The notes beneath the pieces were generated by a model. It did no database searches. It saw only the letters and a program-made list of their open reading frames with translations, and was not told the origin of the DNA. 64,000 nucleotides of DNA from Candidatus Saccharimonadota bacterium (lineage in GTDB: Bacteria; Patescibacteriota; Saccharimonadia; Saccharimonadales; Saccharimonadaceae). The DNA lies in contig JAFXKT010000001.1 of NCBI GenBank assembly GCA_017531585.1, positions 310,001-374,000 of the forward strand, given 5' to 3'. Both the position numbers and the translations under genes were made by a program. Of the stretch, positions 45,626 to 48,425 are shown one piece after another (position 1 is the first letter of the stretch; every line of letters begins with the position of its first letter).

Positions 45626-48316
45626 ATGGCGCATTTCGGTGTGCAAAAAGCAAAGAGTAAAGCTCTTGTAGCTTTGGCTGCAGCCGCTGCTATTAGTGGC
45701 GCGGCATTCAATTCTGCTCCAGCTAACGCTGCTAGTACGATGCAGATTGGTACTTTTTCCATTGAAGCTGATGGTAAGTTGCCAGCAGTCGTAGGTGGTT
45801 GGAGTCAAAACTATGATTACTGGACCTACGAAGTTTCCGAAGAAGAAACTGGTCTTCATAAAATTAAGCCAAATGATTATTTCGGCTGTGACAGAAGGAC
45901 TGGTACTTCGGGCTCGGGTGTTCTCTTGAAGAATAAAGAGGCATTCCAGAACTTCGTAACAAACTATAATGGCGCTGCCGATAAGATGATTCAGGCCTGT
46001 GAGCAGGTTACTGATTCTCATAAGTCCGGAAAACTAGGCGTATATGAAATTGAATTTAACTCCGAAGAAGGACACGCCTACCAGAACTCGATTTATACAA
46101 CTTATTCCGGAGAAATATTTACAGTTAAGACGGATTTGGATTTTGATCCGGATGCACATCTAGAAGAAAATAGCGAATCAAGCCATTTGATTATCCGTAA
46201 TACCTTTAATAACAATGGAAAAATGGCCTTCCAGGTAACGCCTAAGAAGGTTGGTAATACTCAATTGAGATACGTAAAAGGTGATCAGACTCTTGGTGAT
46301 TTTTCTATTTATGTTTCAGATATCGAAGACATAGATTCTGAAGGTAATATTTATTACAATAACCCTGACAGGTACGGTGATGGTTACTTTGCTGCCTATG
46401 CGCACTATATTGGTACAGAAGCTTTGGATTTAGGCGATATTGAGACAAATCTACCATCAGGTCGTGTTTATCTTGAAATTGGTACTAGAGGGAATGAGGC
46501 TATGAGCGAAACTGGAACCGATAGTCCTGTTACTGTAGGTACGAAGAATAATCCTCTCACTCTAAACCTAGGAAGCCTTAACGATTCATTGACTATTAAT
46601 GGTGGGAGCCATGTAAAGTTTACTGGAAATATCAATAACGATATCACTATTAATAAAAACACGCTCGTAGAAGGTGATCCGCTAGTTGCTTCTTTGACTG
46701 TTGAGAGTGATTCTACTCAGAACAGTGGCGAAATGCGCAACATCGTCAACGAAGGTGACTTAACGATTAAGGGCGGTACTTACAATAATATCCAGATTAG
46801 AGGCGGTAATATCGATATTCAGGGCGGCTCGTTCAGACAGGAAGGCAAGGCTGCGACAATGTTGAATGATAGCATTGTTCGTGGTAGTAGTGATGGTTCA
46901 ATTACTATTTCTGGCGCCGATACAAAATTCGAGCATGTCGTAACATCTCCGGAAGGCGATAATGCTATCTGGCACAATGATACCTACGCTTTGATTCATA
47001 CTTATGGCTCAGATGTTACTATCGATGGCGGTACATTTATAAGCAATGGCTCCATTATTAGTGGCGAAGATTATACTGACGCTACGACTCCAAGGGGCAA
47101 CTATACGATTAACGGTGGTACCTTCGAAGCAAAGCATATTGCTGCCTTTTCAAATAACTGGCAGGGCAAGATGATGATCAATGGTGGCGATTTCAAGACA
47201 ACCGATCGCTTCTATGTCTGGGATACGCTAGAAGATTGGGAAGATCATAAGCTACTCAATCAATACGACTCTTTGCCAGAAGGATTAGGGTCTGTCGGTG
47301 AAGTTGTCCGCTACGCAGATAGCGAAGGAAACGAGCACCGTAACTGGGGTACAGGCTCAATGGGTATTACTCGTACGCTAATTAAGCCAACTCTAGCAAA
47401 TATGGAAGTAAATGGCGGCGACTTTTCGGATGGCTATGACGAAGACAGCGATACTGGCGTCTTCCCGGCAGCCGATCATGATGAAGTTGAACTTGATGGT
47501 GATTATGATAATGATGGCCGCAAGGACGTAAGAGTTCTTCCTGCAGAGACATATGAAATTGCCGTAGAAGTTGGCGAAAAAACACATCCACGCGATCTTC
47601 CTGAAGGCTACGAAATTGTTTCTATCGATGGCGACGATGTCTGTACGGCAGAAATCATCGATGGTGCAATTGTCATTTCGGGTCTTTCGGCAGGTGAATG
47701 TACCGTAAAGGCATCCGATAAAGAAAATGATATTCAGGTCTTTAATGTCCATGTTACGGATCTTGAGAATTATACTGAAGGTGATCCACTAAGCATCCCA
47801 GTAGGTGAAACCAAGACTCCAGAAGATCTTGATGGTAAGAATCCAGAAGATTTGGATTGGACGGTTGTCGAAGGTCGCGACTATTGTACAGTAAGCGACA
47901 GCGGTGCAATTACTGCAATTAAAGGCGGTGGCACTTGTAAGGTGACTGCTCGCGACCCAGAAACTGGCGACACTAAGGTCTGGGAAGTCCAGACAACTGA
48001 ACCGCTAGAAATCGGTGTTGGCGAATCTAAGAAACCAACTGATCTTCCAGAAGGTGCAGAGAATGGCGAATGGAGCAGCAGTGATACAAATGTCTGCACA
48101 GTCGCAAGCGATGGTACTATCACTGGTAAGAAAGCAGGTACTTGCTATGTAACTCTTACCCTTGATGGTAAAGTCTATACCTGGAAAGTTACCATTACTG
48201 GTAACCCAGATACAGCAGATAAAACTCGCGCAGCTATATTCACAGTTGCCGGTGCAGTAACCGCAGGCTTTGCAGCTTTGTCGGTAGCAGCACGCCGCTT
48301 CTTCGGACGCAAATAA
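45626..48316 (+). CDS. Secreted beta-helix/Big-like surface protein with sortase-type C-terminal signal (896 aa)
   Basis: The signal peptide is Ala-rich with cleavage near ANA-A (about residue 37). An N-terminal domain of about 230 residues follows. A region around 280-560 has NGGxF and GGTF repeats typical of right-handed parallel beta-helices (TINGGTFEAKH, TIDGGTFISNG). Three Big-like Ig domains (about 625-860) each hold one Cys pair (DVCTAE/GECTVK, DYCTVS/GTCKVT, NVCTVA/GTCYVT). The C-terminus is NPDTADKT, then a hydrophobic helix, then RRFFGRK, the layout of a sortase sorting signal with a non-LPXTG motif. The ATG at 45626 is chosen over a TTG 30 nt upstream because GGGAGGT lies six nt before it. 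Function is unknown; surface adhesion is likely. Confidence 0.85.
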   Translation: MAHFGVQKAKSKALVALAAAAAISGAAFNSAPANAASTMQIGTFSIEADGKLPAVVGGWSQNYDYWTYEVSEEETGLHKIKPNDYFGCDRRTGTSGSGVLLKNKEAFQNFVTNYNGAADKMIQACEQVTDSHKSGKLGVYEIEFNSEEGHAYQNSIYTTYSGEIFTVKTDLDFDPDAHLEENSESSHLIIRNTFNNNGKMAFQVTPKKVGNTQLRYVKGDQTLGDFSIYVSDIEDIDSEGNIYYNNPDRYGDGYFAAYAHYIGTEALDLGDIETNLPSGRVYLEIGTRGNEAMSETGTDSPVTVGTKNNPLTLNLGSLNDSLTINGGSHVKFTGNINNDITINKNTLVEGDPLVASLTVESDSTQNSGEMRNIVNEGDLTIKGGTYNNIQIRGGNIDIQGGSFRQEGKAATMLNDSIVRGSSDGSITISGADTKFEHVVTSPEGDNAIWHNDTYALIHTYGSDVTIDGGTFISNGSIISGEDYTDATTPRGNYTINGGTFEAKHIAAFSNNWQGKMMINGGDFKTTDRFYVWDTLEDWEDHKLLNQYDSLPEGLGSVGEVVRYADSEGNEHRNWGTGSMGITRTLIKPTLANMEVNGGDFSDGYDEDSDTGVFPAADHDEVELDGDYDNDGRKDVRVLPAETYEIAVEVGEKTHPRDLPEGYEIVSIDGDDVCTAEIIDGAIVISGLSAGECTVKASDKENDIQVFNVHVTDLENYTEGDPLSIPVGETKTPEDLDGKNPEDLDWTVVEGRDYCTVSDSGAITAIKGGGTCKVTARDPETGDTKVWEVQTTEPLEIGVGESKKPTDLPEGAENGEWSSSDTNVCTVASDGTITGKKAGTCYVTLTLDGKVYTWKVTITGNPDTADKTRAAIFTVAGAVTAGFAALSVAARRFFGRK

Positions 48317-48391: not shown

Positions 48392-48425
48392 AAAGTCCCT
48401 CCACCTCCCAGGGGGATTTTCTTTT
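48392..48425 (+). terminator. Probable terminator of the sortase-type surface gene
   Basis: AAAGTCCC (48392-48399) pairs with GGGATTTT (48413-48420, one wobble) across a 13-nt loop. The T-tract is interrupted by one C. Confidence 0.55.

Follow-up and report, generated by a model that had tools for sequence, protein, structure and literature searches.

The closest described counterparts of the signal treated here are substrates of class B sortases. According to PMC11987632, Bacillus anthracis SrtB requires the Asp at P2' in the peptide DNPKTGDE of IsdC and is reported to bind the Asn at P4 through Tyr191, Ser231, and the catalytic Arg243; in the same paper, the signal of Staphylococcus aureus IsdC is given as NPQTN, and two SrtB enzymes are called specific for heme transporter proteins. 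A sortase family occurs in more than half of candidate phyla radiation genomes, as stated in PMC6744442. For the phylum that includes Saccharibacteria, the open-access literature that we searched contained no class B sortase or NPxTAD-type signal; subscription papers were mostly outside that search. Here we describe the C-terminus of a predicted wall-anchored surface protein of 896 amino acids (aa), encoded at 45626-48316 in a window of 64,000 nucleotides (G000:C4:310001-374000) from a Saccharibacteria genome of 1.01 Mb that is 99.6% complete. This C-terminus, which carries the motif NPDTAD, is likely a class B type signal for sorting to the cell wall, with a stand-alone SrtB of the same genome (L004) as its enzyme, judging by sequence comparison. 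The Saccharibacteria known so far live on other bacteria as attached cells, and little is known of how their attachment proteins are displayed. A reliable tag would allow the candidate wall-anchored proteins of the whole genus to be listed by a simple search and paired with one enzyme.

The protein has the general layout of wall-sorted proteins: a signal peptide-like segment, recognized by eye, at the N-terminus and, at the C-terminus, a PxT motif followed by a hydrophobic stretch and a basic end. NPDTAD, a 21-residue hydrophobic stretch, and the terminal RRFFGRK can be read directly in the sequence, as an earlier note on this DNA had stated, with KTR between the motif and the hydrophobic stretch. 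That note had placed its feature at 47570-48316; the tail is there, but this region is only the C-terminal quarter of the open reading frame (ORF). NPDTAD agrees with known class B substrates in having Asn at P4, then Pro, and Thr at P1. Because it belongs to this known kind (NPQTN/NPKTG), we regard the signal as a variant rather than a new system. By analogy with class B sortases, the cut is expected between T863 and A864, which would place D865 at P2'. An LPXTG signal of class A/C (PF00746) does not describe this C-terminus: Asn stands at P4, and the 13 weak matches to PF00746 (Gram_pos_anchor) that the genome gives at E up to 10 all lie away from this gene. A script that screened the window's ORFs of at least 60 aa picked out four in which a hydrophobic stretch comes after a PxT close to the C-terminus; apart from the present gene, these are ORFs of 62-70 aa that lack a basic end.

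The earlier note had also anticipated that further proteins would end in the same way, and the genome contains five more C-terminal NP[DE]Tx[DS] tails. NPxTxD matches the genome ten times, compared with three times for a reversed-pattern control, and in five of the ten a stop comes 32-37 codons later, after a transmembrane segment (TM) and a basic end. A profile of these five tails, used without the pattern, recovered a sixth, NPDTAS. The same six tails are found among the 30 matches to NP[DE]T; the remaining 24 lack this layout. All six genes have a signal peptide-like start, as judged by eye. The NP-tail proteins have different domains (Big_2, Cna_B, LRR), so it is the signal that they share. 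The residue at P2 is acidic (Asp or Glu) in all six tails, and Asp is present at P2' in five of them, as D865 is in this protein. From these comparisons we write the motif as NPxTxD, of which NPDTAD is one spelling. The recurrence of NPDTAD together with this layout is not due to chance. In another genome, G109, P2 is Gln in eight of nine tails read, so that this position differs between the two species, which suggests co-adaptation with the sortase; covariation of P2 with the loop behind TLSTC, looked for by eye, was not established.

The signal recurs beyond this genome. In the genus (45 genomes), NPxT[AG]D gave 113 matches versus 34 for the reversed-pattern control, and 58 of the 112 distinct matches are C-terminal tails, defined as lying 26-50 codons from the stop with a hydrophobic segment and more than 100 open codons upstream. 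The remaining 54 include serine hydroxymethyltransferase and five proteins in which motif and TM are internal. The NPGTGD or NPETGD of serine hydroxymethyltransferase (assigned by Pfam) recurs across the genus and was judged incidental, not a signal. It might be supposed that the C-terminus is merely a retained transmembrane anchor and that the letters NPDTAD are incidental; a TM with a basic end retains many proteins by itself, and cleavage in our case is a prediction. We consider this very unlikely, as NPxTxD recurs at a fixed place before differing TMs in proteins with different domains, over half of the distinct genus matches are tails, and such tails both co-occur with class B sortases and are encoded near them in Firmicutes, as described below.

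Co-occurrence was assessed in a draw of 151 genomes of the family from a larger group. Fourteen of them encode a class B sortase, namely all nine of the genus and five of the 142 others. C-terminal NPxTxD tails, counted with one profile (A3) at one threshold (E <=0.01), are present in 11 of these 14 genomes (eight of the nine genus genomes plus G006, G020, and G028) versus one of the 137 without the enzyme. Fisher tests of the association gave 2.7e-13 by genome, 8.5e-5 outside the genus, and 1.4e-4 by genus ( tails in four of six genera with a class B sortase and in one of 55 without). One locus was read in each non-genus genome with an A3 match, comprising 18 genomes without a class B sortase as well as G006, G020, and G028. 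In the other 17 match-giving genomes without the enzyme, the loci read held LPxTG-like tails, a histidine kinase, or TMs without a motif. An LPQTAD in G100, at first taken for an internal signal, was rejected since it lies in a histidine kinase. The broader profile A3 was needed here: a narrow profile, A2, matched strongly only in this genome and G094, while Pfam Gram_pos_anchor misses NP tails and, at a lax threshold, matches 13 of 14 control genomes and hence provides no test.

Sortases, which the earlier note had proposed to look for and whose absence would have refuted its reading, are present: six genes of the genome match PF04203 over its cut-off. L001 is a class C sortase in a gene group with LPFTG and LPHTG proteins, and L002 is class E/C-like. 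Three enzymes (L004, L005, and L006) are of class B by TIGR03064, two of them over its cut-off and L006 0.05 bits under it. L004 stands alone between leuS and nusB (frame G000:C5:124113-124952; neighbors checked by Pfam) and scores 168.2 bits against TIGR03064, whose cut-off is 153.75; in nine of nine genus genomes of the draw, the stand-alone sortase adjoins nusB and/or leuS. Across 18 aligned relatives, its His165, Cys260 (within TLSTC), and Arg266 do not vary. L004 aligns to B. anthracis SrtB (2oqw) at 9.8e-34, and the Tyr191, Ser231, and Arg243 of that enzyme align with Tyr218, Ser258, and Arg266. An AlphaFold model of L004 (m28f827040a48; pLDDT 87.4) has a predicted SrtB fold, and the first 19 among the 50 PDB matches listed are all class B sortases. 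On comparative evidence (the co-occurrence above and the gene neighborhoods below), L004 is the most likely enzyme for NPxTxD. The sixth gene, which adjoins secY (L003:1243-1905, G000:C5:252646), is class F-like; its TLxTC box reads TLSLVSV, its catalytic Cys appears to be lost, and the product is possibly a non-catalytic sortase fold.

L005 and L006 belong to two pilus-like loci beside DUF7601-type pilin-like proteins (L035:10241-16893 and L036:5996-7150), whose tails, SPAGRFFMILPF and VSTGVAMYIVPF, have no xPxTG motif; a signal peptidase gene is also present at the L005 locus. These two resemble the Streptococcus pyogenes Spy0129 type (3psq) both in their class by TIGR03064 (with the shortfall noted above for one) and in their pilin-like neighbors, whereas L004 differs from that type in its clade and in the tails with which it is associated. 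In the sortase tree, rooted at the midpoint for drawing only and with L155-L157 read as Saccharibacteria, the genus's stand-alone enzymes join the sortases of G006, G020, G028, and G134 in one clade (98/95), nested in a broader assemblage that also includes Firmicutes sequences (98/97). The 13 class B sequences linked to pilins cluster apart (100/100). Outside the genus, five genomes have a class B sortase; four of them have it in the stand-alone clade, three of these four with tails, and the sortase of G002 is on a long branch outside it. These results bear on whether the signal is real but is used by another sortase of the genome, be it either pilin-linked class B enzyme, the class C enzyme, or the class E/C-like one. 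All of these are encoded in the genome, and pilin-linked class B sortases occur in all nine genus genomes of the draw. Their separate clade and their position beside pilin-like genes with other tails, in one case also beside a signal peptidase gene, make this unlikely, as do the placement of the non-genus genomes and the LPFTG and LPHTG partners of the class C sortase. The earlier note's further suggestion, that the tail defines the recognition sequence of this organism's sortase, stands for a recurrent NPxTxD signal but not for a sole one, given that LPFTG, LPHTG, and LPKTG tails also occur in the genome and pilin-linked class B sortases sit beside other tails.

Gene neighborhoods outside the genus likewise point to a class B enzyme. 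In G028, the gene immediately downstream of the class B sortase gene encodes a protein that ends in NPATGD-TM-KRR. A search with L004 identified 46 loci from named genomes, six from Saccharibacteria and 40 of Firmicutes type (uncultured Bacilli, Clostridia, Erysipelotrichaceae, Clostridium, or "Tenericutes"); the relatives at 98-99% identity are from Candidatus Saccharibacteria, and the class B sortases of uncultured gut Bacilli and Clostridia are 34-53% identical to L004. Within flanks of up to 3 kb, several of them cut by contig ends, a gene for an NPxT[ASGN]D-TM-basic protein lies near the sortase in 22 of the 40 Firmicutes loci. One locus has an IPNTGD gene, the only other xPxTx tail seen, and 17 have none. 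The gut Bacilli and Clostridia differ from our case in that P2 of their tails is Lys or Asn and the sortase lies near a substrate gene, whereas L004 has only leuS and nusB as neighbors. Gut Firmicutes (Bacilli/Clostridia) and Saccharibacteria have the sortase and its signal in common, probably through horizontal transfer, the direction of which we infer from the rarity of the enzyme in the Saccharibacteria family. A surface-display enzyme may thus have moved together with its code between gut Firmicutes and a minimal genome. Exosortase and rhombosortase systems also use a motif-TM-basic layout, and a protein-sorting protease of that type could in principle use the tail. Three tail proteins scanned against NCBIfam gave no sorting-domain match (E up to 1; exosortase and rhombosortase genes themselves were not searched for), and the motif and its associations fit class B sortases, which makes such a protease highly improbable.

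Taken as a class B signal served by L004, the C-terminus would function as follows. The N-terminal signal peptide would export the protein, and the C-terminal TM and basic tail would hold it. L004 would recognize NPxTxD, with its Cys attacking the Thr carbonyl; the A-D-TM tail would be released, and the protein would be transferred to the amine of a cell-wall precursor, yielding a covalently anchored and perhaps adhesin-like product. L004 may also serve the other NP-tail proteins of the genome. The system would resemble that of B. anthracis SrtB and IsdC in P4 Asn, Pro, Thr, and the conserved Asp of NPxTxD at P2', as well as in the predicted SrtB fold, TLSTC, and catalytic residues. It differs in its Saccharibacterium host, in the acidic P2 of this species, and in P1', which is often Ala (27 of 44 listed tails, most of which had been chosen for Ala or Gly). 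Ala at P1' has a precedent in the NSKTA of BasL, described in PMC3208642 as a candidate B. anthracis SrtB substrate whose sortase is unsettled. Unlike the SrtB enzymes called specific for heme transporters, L004 would have several diverse secreted candidate substrates.

Several observations weigh against the assignment to L004, beyond the genome's other sortases, namely the two pilin-linked class B enzymes, the class C enzyme, and the class E/C-like one. The NP tails of this species are acidic at P2, whereas B. anthracis SrtB prefers Lys over Leu at that position (PMC11987632). In Firmicutes, 18 of the 40 loci have no NPxTxD tail in the flanks examined, and the figure of 22 of 40 is a raw count, uncorrected for the frequency of such genes elsewhere in those genomes. 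G134 and G002 have a class B sortase and no detected tail. G120, as read, shows only TPNTGD and LPRTGD C-terminal tails plus an internal NPxTWD. Conversely, G145 is the one tail-bearing genome among the 137 that lack the enzyme, and its NPQTGD stretch lies in a broken frame. P4 is also Val, Ser, Thr, Ala, or Leu in some tails, and recognition may therefore extend beyond NPxTxD. Because the search pattern behind most tails already fixed N, P, T, A/G, and D, their conservation in the alignment A3 is in part built in; A3 was also trained on the genus itself, which favors tail finds there and gives it a smaller reach outside.

The motif is not restricted to C-termini. In 22 proteins of the genus, PxTx(D) stands inside the chain, ahead of a TM hairpin whose AxA resembles a signal peptidase site; the order is signal peptide, domain, [N/S/T/A/I]PxTx(D), TM, basic loop, second TM ending in AxA, and long repeat region. 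Three are encoded in the present genome (C4:192738, C4:390777, and C5:97074; L277, L278, and L040), and the others are L280-L282, L284, L285, L294, L295, L316, L317, L322, L325, L330, L348, L349, and L358-L362. The motif lies ~160-630 residues from the frame start, P4 is Asn in 14 of the 22, and P2' is Asp in 16. Measured from the first residue of the motif, [AVST]xA ends at a distance of 53-58 residues in 18 of the 22 proteins and at a greater one in the others. Behind the second TM, [AVST]xA was present in all 15 proteins first collected versus 33 of 74 control hydrophobic segments (equal windows, a rough control); the remaining seven have it too, although for them the window examined was wider. 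A4, a profile trained on ten of the proteins, gave 14 protein matches in six genus genomes, and all seven that were new carry PxT-TM at the expected place. In the family draw, matches extend through the hairpin only in the genus itself. Free-standing frames of 171-193 aa with a signal peptide-like start and the A4 domain only were seen in G057, G017, G122, and G138 (L350-L353), which have no class B sortase.

The nearest precedent that we found for this arrangement, by analogy, is the N-terminal region of Gram-positive IgA1 metalloproteases, in which an N-terminal LPXTG is followed by a cut stated to lie 56 residues downstream (PMC9637739). The internal-signal proteins resemble these proteases in having the motif near the N-terminus with an AxA-like site at a similar spacing, and they differ in their PxTx(D), mostly NP, in place of LPXTG. 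Five of the 22 were scanned, one over its first 370 aa only, and gave no G5 or M26 match; four of the five have clear domains, Flg_new/InlB or DUF285 repeats. Tentatively, the genus may use the NPxTxD code in two ways: the internal motif would be cut by sortase and the chain by signal peptidase some 53-70 residues farther on, giving two surface proteins, one of them wall-anchored. We would put this at somewhat below an even chance. The proteins at C4:192738 and C4:390777 share the layout and are unmatched by A4, and P and T were partly selection criteria of the internal set, both of which count against two products.

The gene itself lies between tgt and a transporter gene of the AI-2E type; as these two neighbors are encoded on the minus strand, it is probably monocistronic. 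A gggaggt stretch upstream of its ATG is a possible ribosome-binding site. The protein contains a long region with "INGGTF"-like repeats, recognized by eye, and residues 653-711 give a weaker Pfam match, below its cut-off. Among the 45 genus genomes, a full-length match occurs only in G094, as an ortholog with 93% identity.

Table 1. Features of the gene and its surroundings (window positions) and the C-terminal NP tails of the genome (genes by contig position)
Feature	Position	Strand	Basis or domain
Gene of predicted wall-anchored surface protein, 896 aa	45626..48316	+	ORF; start ATG
Putative signal peptide (MAHFGVQKAKSKALVALAAAAAISGAAFNSAPANA), residues 1 to ~35	45626..45730	+	Sequence; cleavage site by eye
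C-terminal Ig-like region	47582..48166	+	Pfam
Big_2 match, residues 805-847	48038-48166	+	Pfam 1.9e-6, over cut-off
Sorting motif NPDTAD (predicted), residues 860-865	48203..48220	+	Sequence
21-residue hydrophobic stretch AAIFTVAGAVTAGFAALSVAA	48230..48292	+	Sequence
Basic tail RRFFGRK, then stop	48293..48313	+	Sequence
Weak terminator-like site downstream of gene	48398..48415	+	3 found in region vs 2.3 expected, a count not above chance
Tail NPDTAD	This gene, 45626-48316		Big_2
Tail NPDTAD	C5:374797		
Tail NPETGD	C5:12949		LRR
Tail NPDTVD	C4:106555		Big_2
Tail NPETSD	C5:457497		11 Cna_B
Tail NPDTAS	C4:4519		Found by profile of the five NPxTxD tails

Two further observations concern tails of this genome. 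The LRR gene with NPETGD at C5:12949 (L032:6989-8047) has an in-frame stop directly behind the signal peptide, and its relative in G171 (L227) is open at that place. At C5:429756 (L020), a frame of 367 aa ends in VPNTADN-TM-KKSSK, a C-terminal tail with Val at P4 that was added by a later profile.

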